From a virus: a stretch of DNA of 34,811 nt. The notes beneath the pieces are model-generated. The model had not been told where the DNA came from and ran no database searches. It was given only the letters and a program-made list of their open reading frames with translations. Shown here one piece after another: positions 4,700-33,051 of this stretch. Positions within the stretch are counted from its first letter, which is position 1; every line of letters starts with the position of its first letter. A program made the translations under genes and the position numbers. The DNA lies in IMG/VR virus record IMGVR_UViG_3300044825_000326, positions 1 to 34,811 of that record, one strand, 5' to 3'.

Positions 4700-7027
4700 T
4701 TAGAGGTATGCACCCATTATTACTTGTTGTTCTACTTCTTCTAATTCAGCAGTTGTTACACCACCAGAAGCCGTAGCCCAGGTAGGTACTCCGCCAGACA
4801 CTGTTAGCACCTGACCGTTTGTACCGATTGCTCGCTTAGCAAGGGTGTTTGTTGCTGAAGCGTAAAGCAAATCACCAGTTGTGTAGGTAGACTGTGCAGT
4901 TCCACCATTGGCTGCTGGTAGTGTGCCAGTTACACCAGTGCTTAGTGAAACATTTGTAATTGTATTACTTGCACCAGAGATTGTTTTATTGGTTAAAGTT
5001 TCACTACCAGCCAAAGTAGCAAAGTCACCATCAGTAAGTGCTGTGTTAAATTGAGCAATAGTTCCGCTCACTGTATTGCTACCAAGAGCAATAGTCTTGT
5101 TAGTTAAAGTTTGGCTACCAGTCAAAGTTGCTACTGTAGAATCAATACTTAATGTAACATCACCAGATGTCCCGCCACCCGATAGACCAGTACCAGCAGT
5201 TACGCTAGTAATGTCACCAGGATTAGGAGAAACCCAAGCAAGTCCTGTTGTTGTTGCTGAGTCAACTGCCAAGATATATCCATTGGTTGAAGCAACTGTT
5301 AGTACAGATGGAGTAGATGCTCCGCTTGCTGAGATAAGTGAACCCTTGGCAGTAAGGATTGACTTGTCAATAAAGTTAGATGTATCAGGGGCTACTAAAT
5401 CCCAGGCTGAACCATCATAAACCTTCATTGCTCCAACTACTGTGTTGAAGTACAACGCACCAGTTAGTAGTGGGTTGCCATCATTGTCTACAGTTGGGTC
5501 AGATGACTTGTCACCAAGGTATCTATCATCAAACTGGTCATAAGATGTTGCAGCAGATGCAGCACTTGTCGCTGCTGAGTTAGCAGATGTCAGTGCTGAC
5601 GAAGCCGAAGTGCTAGCACTAGAAGCAGATGTAGCCGCTGCCGTGGCAGATGCGGCTGCGCTAGTTGCTGATGTTGCTGCAGCACTTGCAGAAGCAGCAG
5701 ATGCTATAGCAGATGTATCAGCAGAATTAGCCGAAGTTAAAGCAGAAGATGCCGATGTGCTTGCAGAAGCAGCGCTAGTCGCAGCAGCGGTAGCGGATGC
5801 AGCAGCACTTGTTGCGCTAGTAGATGCTGCAGTAGCACTAGCAGCAGCAGATGTTGCTGAAGTAGCAGCAGCAGTTGCACTGGCTGCAGCAGATGTAGCA
5901 CTTGTTGCAGCAGCGCTGGCTGATGTAGCCGAAGCAGTTGCCGAGTTGGCTGCAGATGTAGCAGATGTGCTGGCTGAGTTAGCGCTAGTTAAAGCAGATG
6001 AGGCAGAAGTTGCTGCTGAAGTAGCCGATGTGGCAGCAGCGGCAGCAGAGTTAGAAGCCGTAGTAGCAGAGGCAGCAGCGCTTGTAGCGCTGGTTGCTGC
6101 TGCAGTCGCAGAAGCCGCTGCAGAGGTTGCAGAGGTGGCTGCTGCTGTGGCTGAGGCAGATGCACTGTTGGCGCTAGTAAGGGCGTTAGAAGCGCTTGTA
6201 GAGGCGCTAGATGCACTTGTAGCAGCAGAGGCAGCACTGGTAGCAGCCGATGCTGCTGAGGTTGCTGCAGCCGTTGCGGAGCCTAAAATGCTATCTACGT
6301 AATCTTTAGGGGTAGCAGAGGTAGAAACCATACCTGCCGAGGACAGACCTGTAATTACTGGTGTACCTGATATTACAGGGCTAGTCAAAGTTTTATTAGT
6401 CAGGGTCTGAGTTGCTGAGTCAAGGACTACGGTACCTGTTGTATTAGGTAGAGTGATTGTGTTGTCCTGTGTTGGGTCAACTACAGTTAGGGTAGTCTCA
6501 AATGCGTCAGCAGTTGTACCTTCAAATACCAATACAGCACCTGCAGAAGCGGTGCCTGTAATTGTTGGGTCAGTGATAGTTGGGGCAGTAAGAGTCTTGT
6601 TAGTAAGTGTCTGAGTTTTTAGTGTTCCTACAACGTCACCTTCACCAGATGCAATGCCGTGCATTGTGTGAGGTTGGCCAGCTCCATCATTGTAAGCTGC
6701 GCTAGCTTCTGCGTGTAGATTAGCATCACGATAATCACGACCAATAGCCATGTGACGAACTACTGCACCTGCTGAATGCTCTTGAGCTGATGAGCCATCA
6801 ATGGCTCGGGTAATCGTAAAGGTATTGGTAGATACCGCCGTGGCATCTACAATTTCTTCGAGAGCTGTATCTGGGTCGATGACCAAAGTAAAAGTACGAC
6901 CTGCTGGGATTGTTACACCACCTAGCAAACCAGTTCCGGACACAACCGTGATAGAGGTAGCGCCTGAAGTAATAGCAGCAGTTAATGTAGTCTGCTGCGA
7001 GCGGGACGAGTATTGGCGAGTTGTCAT
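4700..7027 (-). CDS. Tail fibre with long Ala/Ser/Thr heptad-repeat stalk
   Basis: This 775-residue fibre starts with a domain (residues 1-130) that carries TSITVVSGTGL and an RAIDGSSAQEHSAGA turn, the typical phage baseplate or fibre N-terminus. Between residues 140 and 230 are repeated TLTNKTLT-type motifs, widespread in phage fibres. Residues 240-495 form an uninterrupted stalk of SATxxxx heptads made almost only of Ala, Ser, Thr and Asn. The C-terminal 280 residues contain more TNKTI motifs and a GLSGGGTSGDVTLSI segment. The start has AGGAACATAG before ATG. It is probably a trimeric fibre joined to the tail by its N-terminus. Role well supported; host receptor unknown. Confidence 0.85.
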   Translation of the reverse strand: MTTRQYSSRSQQTTLTAAITSGATSITVVSGTGLLGGVTIPAGRTFTLVIDPDTALEEIVDATAVSTNTFTITRAIDGSSAQEHSAGAVVRHMAIGRDYRDANLHAEASAAYNDGAGQPHTMHGIASGEGDVVGTLKTQTLTNKTLTAPTITDPTITGTASAGAVLVFEGTTADAFETTLTVVDPTQDNTITLPNTTGTVVLDSATQTLTNKTLTSPVISGTPVITGLSSAGMVSTSATPKDYVDSILGSATAAATSAASAATSAASAATSASSASTSASNALTSANSASASATAAATSATSAAASATAAATSATSAAASATTASNSAAAAATSATSAATSASSALTSANSASTSATSAANSATASATSASAAATSATSAAASATAAATSATSAAASATAASTSATSAAASATAAATSAASASTSASSALTSANSADTSAIASAASASAAATSATSAAASATAAATSASSASTSASSALTSANSAATSAASAATSYDQFDDRYLGDKSSDPTVDNDGNPLLTGALYFNTVVGAMKVYDGSAWDLVAPDTSNFIDKSILTAKGSLISASGASTPSVLTVASTNGYILAVDSATTTGLAWVSPNPGDITSVTAGTGLSGGGTSGDVTLSIDSTVATLTGSQTLTNKTIALGSNTVSGTIAQFNTALTDGDFATLAGSETLTNKTISGASNTITNVSLSTGVTGTLPAANGGTAQSTYTTGDLLYASATNTLAKRAIGTNGQVLTVSGGVPTWATASGGVTTAELEEVEQQVIMGAYL
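5540..6290 (-). repeat. 21-bp (7-codon) repeats encoding a coiled fibre stalk
   Basis: Within the fibre gene, about 35 imperfect copies of a seven-codon unit (SAT/SAS/SAN followed by four Ala/Ser/Thr residues) run head to tail. The DNA reads as GC-rich trinucleotides (GCA/GCT with AGC/ACT) at a 21-bp period, so the copies are similar but not identical. Such tracts expand and contract by slippage, so stalk length may vary between close relatives. The opposite strand is also open here, but it encodes only Ala/Val/Leu/Asp/Glu and is a shadow. Confidence 0.85.
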
Positions 7028-20628: not shown

Positions 20629-20856
20629 CTATTCCTCCTCAGGAACATAAGAATATTCTTCTGCTGATAGTAGCATTCCCTTGGCCAACCAAGGATTCAT
20701 ATTCTCACTTACGTCTGTCATTAAGTATCGCGTACCGTTGTAGTCGCTCCACTCACTTACTAGTACCCAGCCTGTGCAAATCTGACTATCCGAATCTTCT
20801 AGCTCTTCAGCTAGGATTCTCATAGCTTTATCGATTGCCTCTGAGAACTTACTCAC
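20629..20856 (-). CDS. Small acidic hypothetical protein (75 aa)
   Basis: The GTG at 20856 overlaps the stop of the proteasome-like gene (GTGA), with a GAGGAA ribosome site. Residues 25-62 (ICTGWVLVSEWSDYNGTRYLM, then MNPWLAKGMLLSAEEY) resemble a family of short proteins common near head genes of actinophages (recollection only). It ends with a PEEE tail. There are no metal ligands or membrane segments. Probably cytoplasmic; role in head assembly is a guess from place. Confidence 0.65.
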   Translation of the reverse strand: MSKFSEAIDKAMRILAEELEDSDSQICTGWVLVSEWSDYNGTRYLMTDVSENMNPWLAKGMLLSAEEYSYVPEEE

Positions 20857-21389
20857 TTGTATTGTTCCTCGACATAAAATGGAGGAGATGTATAAGCGCT
20901 AAGCTTAGAAGCTATCTCCATAGCCATCATTGGTTCTGCGCCAGCATAGAGAGCGCCAAGGGCATACGGCCCGCCCGAACCTATCGAGTAGAGATTATCG
21001 TCACTCTTAATGACAGTAAGCTCTTCATCAATATCAAATGTTTGTCCTCCAACCACCATAAGGAATTGGAAGCGCATTGAATCTTTTTTCTCACCATCAA
21101 AGTTATAACCATTGTCAATCAGGCATTTACGCAGTGATGGCATTGCCTTAGTCACCATATAGTGATAAGGGTCTTTTTTGTCTTTAGCACTAAACACAGG
21201 TGGCACCCAGATATTCTGAGCCACATCACATGGAGCAACTTCTCCAGCCCCTGCAATGATTAATGCACCGCGCTTAGAAATCTTACGCATACGAGGGTGA
21301 GAATAAATTCTACCATCGTCACCAGTAACTCGGCTATCAGCTAAGAGGACGCTCTTGTCGTCGTACTCAATACCAATAATTGTTGTCAT
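20853..21389 (-). CDS. Proteasome beta/HslV-like Ntn hydrolase, probable prohead protease
   Basis: The 178 residues look like a 20S proteasome beta or HslV subunit without a propeptide. Met removal would expose Thr2 (MTTIIGIEYDD). Counting that as Thr1, Asp18 and Arg20 of VLLADSRVT fall at the family's Asp17 and Arg19, and Lys36 of RMRKI matches the Lys33 region with a two-residue insertion. GAG (47-49) and the YSIGSGG turn (134-140) follow, then ALGALYAGAEPMMAMEIA. Family members form rings and cut peptides with an N-terminal Thr. Lying between portal and scaffold, it is well placed for prohead protease. AGGAGGGGACG precedes the ATG. Fold fairly sure; capsid role is inference. Confidence 0.8.
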   Translation of the reverse strand: MTTIIGIEYDDKSVLLADSRVTGDDGRIYSHPRMRKISKRGALIIAGAGEVAPCDVAQNIWVPPVFSAKDKKDPYHYMVTKAMPSLRKCLIDNGYNFDGEKKDSMRFQFLMVVGGQTFDIDEELTVIKSDDNLYSIGSGGPYALGALYAGAEPMMAMEIASKLSAYTSPPFYVEEQYK

Positions 21390-25640: not shown

Positions 25641-25669
25641 TTGACAAGTTGCGTGTGTCATGGTATAAT
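25641..25669 (+). promoter_or_regulatory. Consensus promoter P1
   Basis: TTGACA at 25641-25646 and a perfect TATAAT at 25664-25669 with a 17-bp spacer and an extended TGg. A GACACGCCG motif lies 23 bp upstream. It faces the early cassette but is far from the first gene, so it would make a long leader or a small RNA. Confidence 0.8.
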
Positions 25670-26720: not shown

Positions 26721-26867
26721 ATGGATAACATGCTAGAGTTCAGCGTGAGTAATTGGGGGATAACCCTAAGCACCGCGCCCTTCTACTTTAATATGTCATG
26801 GGGGTTAATTCTCCTAGTGGCAGGGTTAATAGTAGCCCGCAAGATTATCAAGGTTAAACGCTCATGA
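26721..26867 (+). CDS. Small membrane protein (48 aa)
   Basis: The frame from ATG 26721 to TGA 26865-26867 encodes 48 residues with one membrane helix near residues 24-40 (WGLILLVAGLIVARK) and a basic cytoplasmic-type tail KIIKVKRS. If the overlapping promoter is used, the in-frame ATG at 26730 is the likelier start and the mRNA is nearly leaderless. AGGGGGG at 26703-26709 could serve the 26721 start on longer transcripts. The stop overlaps the next start (ATGA). Holin-like size, but only one helix; function unknown. Confidence 0.55.
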   Translation: MDNMLEFSVSNWGITLSTAPFYFNMSWGLILLVAGLIVARKIIKVKRS

Positions 26868-27064
26868 GTAATGGCGATTACCTAATAGTGCTAACTCCTG
26901 CTGAGTTAGACACTCTACGCACAAGCCTACGCAACGAGAGCGCACGGCTCAAGCAACAGGGTTTCACAGGGCTACAAGCCTATGTCGATAACCTACGCGA
27001 CAAGATTTCCAACATGATGATAGACCAAGCACAGGCACGACTTGACAATAAGGTCAAAGCGTGA
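26864..27064 (+). CDS. Small helical hypothetical protein (66 aa)
   Basis: Sixty-six residues, starting in the ATGA overlap with the membrane-protein stop, so translation is probably coupled. The whole chain looks helical: LTPAELDTLRTSLRNESARL, then GLQAYVDNLRDKISNMMIDQ and a basic end NKVKA. No cysteines, no membrane segment. Its last codons carry the next promoter. No family recognised. Confidence 0.65.
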   Translation: MSNGDYLIVLTPAELDTLRTSLRNESARLKQQGFTGLQAYVDNLRDKISNMMIDQAQARLDNKVKA

Positions 27065-27070
27065 TATAAT
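27042..27070 (+). promoter_or_regulatory. Promoter P7 for the amidoligase operon
   Basis: TTGACA at 27042-27047 and perfect TATAAT at 27065-27070, 17-bp spacer, extended TGa. It spans the stop of the upstream gene and lies 31 bases before the amidoligase start. Confidence 0.8.
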
Positions 27071-27081
27071 ACGGCTAACAA

Positions 27082-27100
27082 AATCACTTAGGGGGTGATT
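27082..27100. promoter_or_regulatory. Palindrome over the amidoligase ribosome site
   Basis: AATCAC and GTGATT form an inverted repeat on either side of TTAGGGG, which contains the AGGGGGTG ribosome site. In DNA it could be an operator just after the P7 start; in RNA a hairpin that hides the ribosome site. Confidence 0.5.
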
Positions 27101-28324
27101 ATGATAGACAATGAGGACACGACAGAGGACATGTTATCCTGTGCCCAATGCCACCATGAGGACATAGAGGACAACATGTTTCACACGCACTATGGTGACG
27201 TAGTGTGTGAGGATTGCTTAGCCTCATGCGAGCATTGTGATAACACAGGCGCAACTAATGACGATTGGTACACAGTATCCGGCGAGAGTTGGTGTGAAGC
27301 ATGCTACGAAAATGACAGTTTTTACTGTGACAGGTGTGATGAACACATCAACAGTAGGCGGTACAGTAGTGCCCGTGTAGGTGACTATACTTGGTGCGAA
27401 TATTGCTTAGAGCATAGCGCAAACTTTTGCGAGGACTGTGACGAGTATTATGACTCTGATGAGAATTGCTATACTTGTGACGGCGGTTTTACTAACGAGT
27501 TAGTACAAGACTATCGCTACAAGCCAGACCCAGAGTTTCACGGCATAGATAAGCACGGCTTGTTTATGGGGTTCGAGTTAGAGATGGAACTCAACAACAT
27601 CACCGGCTCTGAGTATGCTCAAGCGGTCGAGAGTACCCGCGTACTATCAGACACACGCACGGCATACCTTAAGCATGACGGCAGTATCAACGGGCGCGGC
27701 TTTGAGTTAGTCACTCACCCGCATACCTTGTACGCCTATGAGCATGCCAAAGATTTATGGGATACTATCGAGCAGTTGCGTGACAAGTATCGCGCTCGCT
27801 CATGGGATACCAATAGTTGTGGGCTACATGTCCATGTATCTCGCAACGCGTTCAAGTCTGGCGCACATGTCCATAGATTTATCCGCATGATTTATGAAAA
27901 TCCTAGAGAGATGTCTAAGTTAGGTGGTCGCAAGAATAATCGCTACGCCACCTTCAATGATGTCTACATACCTGATGACTATGGCATACCACGCTTTACT
28001 GTACGCCACAAGGTACACAGCAGACAGTTGATAGGTAGTGAGCGATATAGCGCGGTCAATACTAACAATGAACACACACTAGAGTTGCGCTTCTTTAGAG
28101 GCAACATGAAGCGAGAGGGTATTATGTCTGCCCTTGAGCTCACTCACGCTGCGGTCGAGTACACTCGCGACTTGAGCGTGTCTGACGTAAAGTTAGGCAT
28201 GCTTAGTTGGGAGTGGTTCGCCGACTGGGTAGCCAGCAACAACGGCTTATACCCTAACTTATATGTGCGTATGGCAAAAGTGCCTAGCACTAACCTTGAT
28301 AACCGACCACTACTCAACGCTTAG
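27101..28324 (+). CDS. Amidoligase (COOH-NH2 ligase) with eight N-terminal CxxC knuckles
   Basis: I use ATG 27101, just after AGGGGGTG, giving 407 residues. The first 130 hold eight CxxC pairs (C14/17, 36/39, 43/46, 65/68, 76/79, 99/102, 110/113, 123/126), like LIM or treble-clef fingers that bind about four zinc ions. The rest matches the amidoligase branch of the glutamate-cysteine ligase-like fold: GFELEME (157-163), KHDGSI, RGFELVTHP (199-207), CGLHVHVS (240-247) and ELRFFRGN (328-335). Family members use ATP to join a carboxyl to an amine. The GATase gene follows within ten bases. Family sure; substrate unknown. Confidence 0.88.
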   Translation: MIDNEDTTEDMLSCAQCHHEDIEDNMFHTHYGDVVCEDCLASCEHCDNTGATNDDWYTVSGESWCEACYENDSFYCDRCDEHINSRRYSSARVGDYTWCEYCLEHSANFCEDCDEYYDSDENCYTCDGGFTNELVQDYRYKPDPEFHGIDKHGLFMGFELEMELNNITGSEYAQAVESTRVLSDTRTAYLKHDGSINGRGFELVTHPHTLYAYEHAKDLWDTIEQLRDKYRARSWDTNSCGLHVHVSRNAFKSGAHVHRFIRMIYENPREMSKLGGRKNNRYATFNDVYIPDDYGIPRFTVRHKVHSRQLIGSERYSAVNTNNEHTLELRFFRGNMKREGIMSALELTHAAVEYTRDLSVSDVKLGMLSWEWFADWVASNNGLYPNLYVRMAKVPSTNLDNRPLLNA

Positions 28325-28334
28325 GGGGTGTTGT

Positions 28335-29246
28335 ATGTGTCTATTAGTTGTCTGTAAGCCTAACTCTATTCCAAAGAGTGATGAACTTACAGCCGGTGCG
28401 TGTGCCAACCCACACGGATACGGGTTCGCTATGGTAATTGACGGCAAGATTTTCCGTTATCGTACCATGTCTGCTCGTAAAGCCGTGTCCAAGTTTATCC
28501 ACATGCGCCAACAAAATCCTCACGGCTATGCTATCTGGCATGCCCGCTATGCTACGCATGGTGTAAAAAATGAGGCTAACTGTCACCCGTTCCAAGTGGG
28601 TGACGATACCGATACAGTACTAGCGCACAATGGTGTACTAGATACCTTTATCGACAAGCATGACAAGCGTAGCGATACGCGAGTCTTTGCCGAGGATACT
28701 TTACCTAGACTCGGCGGTGTCCTTGCTTTAGAGGACACCAATATCTACCGCATGATAGAAGCGTGGGCTACCGGTAATAAGATAGCGGTACTCACGACTA
28801 ATCCAAAAGCGCAGTACCAACTGTACCTAATCAACGAACATTTAGGTACATGGGACGAGCATGGTGTATGGTGGTCTAACAGTAGCCACAAGCGTACAAC
28901 GTACACATCTACATACAAGACAACCTATACACCCACCACTACCACCACCACCACATCACACCTAGACACGGACTACTATGCCGAGCAGACTTACTACAAT
29001 GAGTTGCTACTCGCCAATGATGACGAGGTAGTCATAGATATGTGCCCTAGTTGTGAAGCACTCATTGACGTAGACTTGTCAGCAGAAGTATGCCAATACT
29101 GCGACACGTGTATGTCTTGTCTTAGCACATGGCAAGACTGTATGTGCTACACGCCACACTCAGCCCGCTCATATGTCAAAGACAACGACTTTGACAACCA
29201 TTGGGTAAGAGTGTATAATAAAGATAAACAAGCAGTACCATTTTAA
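28335..29246 (+). CDS. Class II glutamine amidotransferase with C-terminal zinc ribbons
   Basis: Start ATG 28335 (AGGGGGTG four bases before) places Cys2 as the N-terminal nucleophile (MCLLVVCKPN), as Ntn glutaminases require; an earlier in-frame start would bury it. HARYATHG (69-76), HPF, AHNGVL (97-102) and SDTRVFAE complete the glutaminase core that frees ammonia from glutamine. Residues 187-208 are a Thr-rich linker. The C-terminus carries CPSC, CQYC, CMSC and CMC clusters (237-271), about two zinc sites. It follows the amidoligase in one operon, so ammonia for an amide, or breakdown of a glutamyl bond, is the likely joint job. Confidence 0.87.
   Translation: MCLLVVCKPNSIPKSDELTAGACANPHGYGFAMVIDGKIFRYRTMSARKAVSKFIHMRQQNPHGYAIWHARYATHGVKNEANCHPFQVGDDTDTVLAHNGVLDTFIDKHDKRSDTRVFAEDTLPRLGGVLALEDTNIYRMIEAWATGNKIAVLTTNPKAQYQLYLINEHLGTWDEHGVWWSNSSHKRTTYTSTYKTTYTPTTTTTTTSHLDTDYYAEQTYYNELLLANDDEVVIDMCPSCEALIDVDLSAEVCQYCDTCMSCLSTWQDCMCYTPHSARSYVKDNDFDNHWVRVYNKDKQAVPF
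29191..29219 (+). promoter_or_regulatory. Promoter P8 inside the GATase 3' end
   Basis: TTGACA at 29191-29196 and perfect TATAAT at 29214-29219, 17-bp spacer. It would start transcription about 50 bases before the next gene at 29276. Confidence 0.75.
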
Positions 29247-29275: not shown

Positions 29276-29563
29276 ATGAACAAAGAACTATTAGCCGATA
29301 GCCTAGCCTATGTATCAGCAAGCCTATCAAATGTAGCAGATAACCTATATGAACTAGCCAACCAAATAGAAGTAAATGGCACAGATGATTACCACCCACG
29401 TGGTACAATTCTTAAAGCAACGCCGGACCAGACCCGCTTCAAGCCTAAGTCCATGTGGGTATCACAAGGTGACGGCACATACAAGCACCTCAATGGTAAG
29501 AAGGGATTAGTAACCACACATGACAGACTCGACGGATACACAGAAGTCATCTTCTCAGCGTAA
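29276..29563 (+). CDS. Early hypothetical protein (95 aa)
   Basis: ATG 29276 follows a purine-rich AGAGAGAG stretch eleven bases upstream. The N-terminal 35 residues are helical (LLADSLAYVSASLSNVADNLYEL); the second half has SMWVSQGDGTYKHLNGKKGL, a beta-type segment. No cysteine, membrane helix or catalytic motif. It has its own promoter. No family recognised. Confidence 0.65.
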   Translation: MNKELLADSLAYVSASLSNVADNLYELANQIEVNGTDDYHPRGTILKATPDQTRFKPKSMWVSQGDGTYKHLNGKKGLVTTHDRLDGYTEVIFSA

Positions 29564-32646: not shown

Positions 32647-33051
32647 TTACTTATCCCACTTATCTCTCATTACTAGCAATGCAATGATTGCGTAGTTAGC
32701 TAAATCCTTGAAGGAATCTTCCATTGATTCATACTCTGGCTGGTCACTACCTGTATCAATCAAGTTGTTGATGCGAGCAACCTTGTCATGTATCCTAACT
32801 CTGAGCCCATTGATAGGCCCGCCCGGTGCATCAGCGATATTGCGTGGGCCGTAGTCCTTGTGCTTCTTTAGCAGGACAGACATGAGTTCATCATATACAA
32901 TCCTTACGTCGTCTTCGAACTGGGTGGATTTACGCGGTAACTCTTCGCGCTCAAGAGCGGCACGCTCAGTGTAACGTTTAAGGACTCGTTCTCCTTGTGG
33001 GTCGCTGTCACCCGATAACCCATACCAACTAGGTGTTCTATAATCTGCCAT
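32647..33051 (-). CDS. DUF1599/Nmad1-like protein
   Basis: One hundred and thirty-four residues. VLLKKHKDYGPRNI (59-72), GGPINGLRVRIHDKVARI (77-94) and SFKDLANYAIIALLVMRDKW (113-132) fit the DUF1599 family, also called nucleotide modification associated domain 1 (family placement from memory). The all-helical fold is related in shape to MazG-type nucleotide hydrolases. In phages it often travels with DNA-base modification genes, but none other is seen here. It may act on nucleotides or help modified-base metabolism. Confidence 0.75.
   Translation of the reverse strand: MADYRTPSWYGLSGDSDPQGERVLKRYTERAALEREELPRKSTQFEDDVRIVYDELMSVLLKKHKDYGPRNIADAPGGPINGLRVRIHDKVARINNLIDTGSDQPEYESMEDSFKDLANYAIIALLVMRDKWDK

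Follow-up and report, generated by a model that had tools for sequence, protein, structure and literature searches.

Organization of the locus

The window, meaning the whole 34,811-nt stretch of DNA analysed here, is a 34.8-kb virus record in which the structural genes (terminase, portal and capsid) occupy the minus strand and small plus-strand genes, divergent from the terminase side, extend from ~25 to 31.5 kb. Among the latter, an amidoligase gene is directly followed by a glutaminase gene and then by a third gene, which we term f29. The features of the region are:

25641–25669, plus strand: perfect promoter, TTGACA-17-TATAAT, 12/12 (promoter scan)
26864–27064, plus strand: ORF of 66 amino acids, more loosely associated with the cassette (present at 42 of 85 pair loci)
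27042–27070, plus strand: sigma-70-type promoter 5′ of the amidoligase gene, TTGACA-17-TATAAT, 12/12, with an extended −10 element (promoter scan)
27088–27099, plus strand: strong ribosome-binding site 5′ of the amidoligase gene, TTAGGGGGTGAT (read from the sequence)
27101–28324, plus strand: amidoligase of 407 amino acids, Amidoligase_2 family, GS/GCS-like fold; ATG at 27101, stop codon at 28322–28324 (profile, model and conserved residues)
27140–27478, plus strand: N-terminal module of the amidoligase, eight CxxC motifs (16 Cys) forming four tandem CxxC-x(9-19)-CxxC units (motif reading and conservation)
28322–28331, plus strand: ribosome-binding site of the glutaminase gene, TTAGGGGGTG, containing the amidoligase stop codon (read from the sequence)
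28335–29246, plus strand: class II (Ntn) glutamine amidotransferase of 303 amino acids, nucleophile Cys2; ATG at 28335 (profiles, model and conservation)
29043–29147, plus strand: C-terminal eight-Cys cluster of the glutaminase, CxxC, CxxCxxCxxC and CxC (motif reading and conservation)
29191–29219, plus strand: perfect promoter, 12/12, within the 3′ end of the glutaminase gene and ahead of f29 (promoter scan)
29276–29563, plus strand: f29, 95 amino acids, no known family, strictly linked to the pair

The two enzyme genes are separated by exactly 10 bp and stand behind a consensus promoter, just as the original prediction had described them. The amidoligase stop codon falls inside the glutaminase ribosome-binding site, which suggests that translation of the two proteins is coupled. 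Ribosome-binding sites of the TTAGGGGGTG form recur (27088–27099 and 28322–28331) and are a near-complete complement of the 16S rRNA 3′ end, with one G–U pair. The extent first assigned to the system, 27101 to 29246, gives the coordinates of the pair correctly but stops short of the end of the conserved unit, which through the third gene reaches at least 29563.

Besides the three perfect promoters there are several sites matching at 10–11 of 12 positions, nearly all of them on the plus strand between 25 and 29 kb, together forming an array of strong promoters in what is presumably an early region. A promoter of at least 10/12 precedes the ligase gene in 36 of 80 relatives, compared with 0 of 80 shuffled sequences. 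The pair is probably expressed early, judging from its promoter and its position divergent from the terminase side. The 66-residue ORF upstream was looked for in eight pair-less genomes or loci and found in none of them, and a search of the window for structural RNAs and tRNAs returned none.

Folds and predicted active sites

The amidoligase matches the Amidoligase_2 profile (PF12224) with 24.5 bits, above the curated Pfam cut-off of 22, and the same profile matches all 25 aligned relatives (best 5.8e-9). In the predicted model (pLDDT 80), residues 149–404 match YbdK (Z 12.3 over 215 residues, rmsd 4.2) and many glutamine synthetases (Z 10–12). Dop scores Z 10.4, which is below YbdK and many glutamine synthetases but in the same range, and PafA and Dop are no nearer to the ligase model than other enzymes of the glutamine synthetase fold.

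Conservation was followed across 103 distinct ligase–glutaminase pairs. Glu159, Glu161, Asp193, Glu202, His243, His245, Glu328 and Arg330 of the ligase are present in all rows that cover them, and the metal, ATP and carboxylate motifs GxExE, DxS...E, GxHxH and ExR are invariant wherever covered. The GxGxHxHxS-like and ExR motifs are those of glutamine synthetase. Residue conservation and the model together show a complete predicted site of the glutamine synthetase type for metal, ATP and carboxylate.

The glutaminase scores above the Pfam cut-offs for GATase_6 (32.6, cut-off 27) and GATase_4 (28.2, cut-off 23). Its model has a pLDDT of 73, with most of the Ntn part above 80, and GlmS and EgtC are level as structural matches (both Z 14.3). 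Cys2, which becomes the N-terminal nucleophile after removal of Met, is found in 103 of 103 glutaminases, and together with His69, Arg71, Thr74, Asn99, Gly100 and Asp114 it is kept in practically every row. Here too, conservation and model show a complete predicted active site, that of a GAT-II enzyme. The amidoligase and GAT-II assignments, first proposed without profile searches or structure prediction, are therefore upheld by both approaches, which place the two proteins in a glutamine-synthetase-like and an Ntn GAT-II fold.

Relative to the nearest relative, dN/dS is 0.17 for the ligase and 0.16 for the glutaminase, and purifying selection also acts on both Cys-rich parts. Because the catalytic residues are nearly invariant, dN/dS is low and profiles and folds agree, we infer that both proteins are very probably working enzymes. 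We found no measurement of enzyme activity for this subfamily in the literature.

Cys-rich modules on both enzymes

All eight CxxC motifs of the ligase (starting at residues 14, 36, 43, 65, 76, 99, 110 and 123) lie N-terminal to the catalytic domain, so the number and location of the knuckles were read correctly at the outset. Their spacing is near constant, 2-18-2-3-2-18-2-7-2-(18-20)-2-7-2-9-(1-2), each Cys is retained in 85–97 of the 103 rows, and an internal repeat is detected by hhalign (97%). Individual relatives mostly have seven to ten CxxC and CxxH motifs, and some have eleven, a variation implying that units have been gained or lost. We predict that the module as a whole holds about four zinc ions.

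The glutaminase carries its CxxC motifs behind the Ntn domain, at 237, 253, 256 and 259, in agreement with the four clusters originally noted; a CxC at 269–271 completes the eight Cys. Each is retained in 97–98 of the 103 rows, and among the close relatives the cluster shows no variation. It is retained in Marvin gp106 too, but the OM43 and ctgrD200 relatives lack it. Two zinc ions are the predicted load. That each Cys is kept across the 103 distinct pairs argues that the clusters on both partners are not there by chance, and the spacing of the Cys residues points to zinc binding by both modules. A shared origin of the two modules was considered and is not supported (hhalign probability 6–9%).

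Foldseek searches with the ligase model gave weak matches to LMO2, Isl1, PINCH1 and FHL2 (E 0.01–0.07, low TM-score). We do not call the module a LIM domain, because the Pfam LIM profile (PF00412) matches none of 25 ligase relatives at E up to 10 and because the link between the fourth and fifth ligands has three residues in 82 of 87 rows, compared with exactly two in LIM. The third ligand, usually His in LIM, is Cys in most rows and His in 7. The module is better described as a putative LIM-like or tandem zinc-ribbon array. LIM-like modules typically mediate protein contacts.

Linkage of the pair and of a third gene

At least 434 relatives of the ligase are present in the viral collection. 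The glutaminase gene adjoins the ligase gene in 191 of 197 ligase loci (repeats of the same contig included), confirming that the adjacency is conserved in related genomes. Five of the six remaining loci are contig ends within ~150 bp of the ligase, and the sixth is a Clostridioides phage with a ligase and no recognisable glutaminase. The spacer measures 8–15 bp in 83 of the 103 distinct pairs. No fused ligase–glutaminase protein was found. Co-evolution of the two proteins beyond shared descent is not indicated by their distance matrices, for which r is 0.83, compared with 0.81 for ligase and WhiB.

A cellular origin of the pair likewise found no support. A search of 84,980 bacterial and archaeal genomes with degenerate patterns, and limited by those patterns, gave no ligase relative and four glutaminase matches, three of them weak. 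The fourth lies on a 3.3-kb Rhodobacteraceae-binned contig that also carries a ligase. This contig from a Rhodobacteraceae MAG (L205; RFQY01000240.1, 3330 bp) holds a close copy of the pair, with 64% identity in the glutaminase, and is most likely a stray viral contig.

Of the 191 pair loci, 168 have f29 after the glutaminase gene; the others are contig ends or distant relatives. When f29 itself was used as the query, the best 80 of 184 loci were analysed: among these, both ligase and glutaminase are present in every one of the 60 whose upstream sequence is 2.6 kb or longer, and the remaining 20, shorter, loci all carry the glutaminase. In loci picked by their terminase, f29 is present in 13 of 13 with the pair and in 0 of 8 without it (Fisher 5e-6, an over-statement since the phages are related). 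The C-terminal 55 residues of f29 have a mean identity of 68%, compared with 60% for the ligase domain and 72% for the glutaminase, and Lys47, Arg54, Ser59, Trp61, His71 and Arg84 are invariant. Searches against PHROG, Pfam, the PDB and annotated phages gave no match to f29. These patterns of co-occurrence make a tight functional link between f29 and the pair well supported.

An optional module of probable freshwater actinophages

The closest isolated phages are informative about host and gene content. The window matches LanE43-AprE7 and LanE43-AprF5 (E7 and F5) at 78% in the terminase, 84% in the portal, 77% in the capsid and 79% in the primase. These phages were the first isolates on ‘Ca. 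Planktophila’ and have 39-kb genomes of 45% G+C that encode WhiB, sigma-70 and glycosyltransferase genes (PMC10202952). The same features are found in the window and, taken with the kinship to E7 and F5, they make a Nanopelagicales host likely.

Although built on the same genome backbone as the window, E7 and F5 have neither the pair nor f29 nor the 66-residue ORF upstream. In pair-less relatives the slot is of similar length (4.1–5.0 kb) and in some of them is occupied by an ORF with an HExxH motif and other small ORFs. The absence of the module from E7 and F5 and the presence of other ORFs in its place indicate that it is one of several alternative cargos and not part of the core genome. The original prediction had thus recognized the pair and overlooked both the linked third gene (29276–29563) and the optional status of the module in its phage family. 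In three of the pair-less relatives (L244, L246 and L251), the HExxH ORFs between terminase and whiB encode ~207–218 residues with the sequence HETAHSLD or HEVAHSLD, which by eye we take for an SprT-like protease.

Three other proteins of the window deserve mention. A 178-residue protein encoded between the portal and the internal genes (20853–21389, minus strand) begins Met-Thr, matches the Proteasome-subunit profile PF00227 with 28.4 bits (cut-off 22.4) and is present in E7 and F5 at ~44% identity; it is perhaps an HslV-like capsid maturation protease. A tail-fibre-like protein of 775 residues (4700–7027, minus strand) has a long Ala/Ser/Thr repeat at about residues 260–510, and its tail half is not conserved in E7 and F5. 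A protein matching PF07659, ‘nucleotide modification associated domain 1’, with 28.8 bits (cut-off 25) is encoded at 32647–33051 on the minus strand and is also found in E7 and F5.

Comparison with known systems

Pairs of this general kind occur in other phages. Mycobacteriophage Marvin (gp105/gp106) and its cluster relatives have an adjacent amidoligase and GAT-II enzyme in the same order as here; the Marvin ligase is 31–32% identical over residues 135–384, and gp106 keeps the C-terminal Cys cluster. Marvin differs in that the Cys module of its ligase is reduced to few CxxC motifs and f29 is missing, and the phage, with a genome of 65 kb, belongs to another genus. Amidoligase/GAT-II pairs in phages are also reportedly discussed, from comparative genomics, in a 2009 survey of amidoligases. 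The OM43 (Methylophilales) phages MEP401 and MEP402 carry an adjacent, slightly overlapping amidoligase and GAT at the early genome end, a pair that is on record (PMC10580990). By contrast with the pair described here, their GAT has no Cys cluster, their ligase has little of one, f29 is absent and the host is a proteobacterium.

Amidoligase genes near GAT-II genes are also known in LUZ24-like and phiEco32-like phages (PMC5498523). The ‘peptidoglycan modification’ cassettes of phiEco32, LUZ24-like and RIO1-like phages, and the same gene set in RHph_N3_13, combine Amidoligase_2 and GAT-II genes in an early region, as would be the case here from position and promoter. They include further genes, for an ATP-grasp enzyme, a second ligase (PF14395) or a gamma-glutamylcyclotransferase (PF06094), whereas PF14395, PF06094 and PF14397 (one ATP-grasp family) have no match at E up to 1 in the present record, which may be a fragment. 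Peptidoglycan alteration by the phiEco32/LUZ24-type cassettes is itself a proposal (PMC10580990, PMC5498523).

Among cellular systems, MurT/GatD and AsnB/LtsA offer a functional analogy only, in which a glutaminase and an ATP-dependent ligase amidate peptidoglycan stem peptides. The protein families differ, however: MurT belongs to the Mur ligases and GatD to the class I GATs, and AsnB couples a GAT-II domain to a PP-loop synthetase. In ergothioneine synthesis, EgtA, a glutamine-synthetase-like ligase, and EgtC, a GAT-II-fold hydrolase, belong to a single pathway. EgtA and EgtC differ from the present pair in having no zinc modules and another gene context, and sequence similarity is too low to place the two systems relative to each other.

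The suggestion that the locus encodes a new biochemical system therefore holds in part. The enzyme pair is not new in kind, given Marvin and the OM43 phages. What appears to be new is the unit-repeat Cys module that varies among relatives, the strictly linked f29 and the behaviour as an optional, swapped-in cargo. The literature searched contained no description of repeated zinc modules or of an obligate third partner.

Function of the module

The best supported reading is a two-subunit amidating enzyme, on the grounds of complete GAT-II and glutamine-synthetase-like sites, constant pairing and translational overlap, and we regard glutamine-dependent amidation by two subunits as having roughly an even chance of being correct. 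The glutaminase would free ammonia from glutamine and pass it to the amidoligase, which would activate a carboxylate with ATP and then amidate it. The most likely role of the two Cys-rich modules would be to join the two enzymes to each other and to anchor them on the target, with f29 serving as an accessory factor or as the acceptor. Against amidation, GAT-II folds also include gamma-glutamyl amidases, EgtC being level with GlmS, and there is neither a fusion protein nor a co-evolution signal beyond shared descent.

The least certain steps concern the target, which may be a peptide carboxylate of the host envelope, in lipid II or the peptidoglycan stem peptide, a change that would guard the infected cell from lysis or from phage competitors. 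Others have proposed that phage genes of this type act on the envelope to counter superinfection (PMC10580990, PMC5498523). Precedents for the chemistry come from MurT/GatD, a ligase and glutaminase that amidate stem peptides (PMC3267633), and from AsnB, which amidates meso-DAP (PMC8554201). An envelope target, which draws on these proposals of other groups and on this precedent, is possible yet doubtful, and the record gave no match to the peptidoglycan-cassette companions PF14395 and PF06094 or to the one ATP-grasp family searched. Taken as a whole, we tentatively favour, at slightly under an even chance, an optional, probably early, glutamine-dependent and envelope-directed amidation module of Nanopelagicales-type actinophages.

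The main rival to amidation is gamma-glutamyl ligation and release in the manner of EgtA and EgtC, in which the ligase would join the gamma-carboxyl of glutamate to an amine and the Ntn protein would later cut the amide, the product being a small metabolite. Its rank follows from EgtC being level with GlmS as the nearest fold and from a pocket that could serve both chemistries, since the conserved GAT-II residues bind a gamma-glutamyl group in either case. The ligase fold, moreover, is nearest to YbdK and other enzymes that form gamma-glutamyl bonds. However, the scanned proteins of the window included none that we could recognise as a further member of an ergothioneine-type or other metabolite pathway, and large Cys-rich modules are rare on small-metabolite enzymes. 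We consider this reading unlikely.

The strict linkage of f29 raises a different prospect, protein tagging, in which the pair would modify f29 itself or a host protein recruited by f29 or by a Cys-rich module. The ligase fold is akin to PafA (Pup ligase) and Dop (depupylase), f29 is both kept and lost together with the pair, its C-terminal part is more conserved on average than the ligase domain and has invariant residues, and LIM-like modules mediate protein contacts, the Foldseek matches being weak. Yet PafA and Dop are no nearer than any glutamine synthetase, f29 has its own promoter in the window, and its absence from distant pair-bearing phages (Marvin, MEP402) implies that it is not a general substrate. 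Tagging thus appears rather improbable. A specific and more speculative arrangement, which we would place lower still, has three components: the pair, docked through its tandem Cys modules, would covalently modify f29 (for example at Lys47) or use it as a carrier or adaptor in marking a host protein, f29 being small and tag- or carrier-like.

Auxiliary metabolism, in which the pair would move ammonia nitrogen or glutamine for phage growth, is the role advocated for a phage whose genes include an amidoligase, a glutaminase and a gamma-glutamylcyclotransferase (PMC10945688). That argument is built on growth stimulation and gene content and not on enzyme assays, the gene family there has other members, and the large conserved Cys modules and f29 would be left unexplained, which makes the reading quite improbable here. 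Least probable by our reckoning is nucleic-acid modification, with the pair amidating a carboxylated base of phage DNA or of host RNA. Zinc ribbons, as frequent contacts of nucleic acid, and the PF07659 protein might speak for it, but no enzyme making such a base was recognised among the proteins scanned, and the PF07659 protein is also present in the pair-less E7 and F5.

Whatever its reaction, this amidoligase subfamily is common among viruses, with its several hundred relatives in the collection, and the role of amidoligase/GAT-II pairs is still termed a proposal in the literature we found. The phages that carry the module described here probably infect one of the most abundant orders of freshwater bacteria, and the module-less isolates of the same family, E7 and F5, make a clean comparison possible. 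As a candidate acceptor or adaptor, f29 provides a concrete handle on the old question of what the pair acts on.
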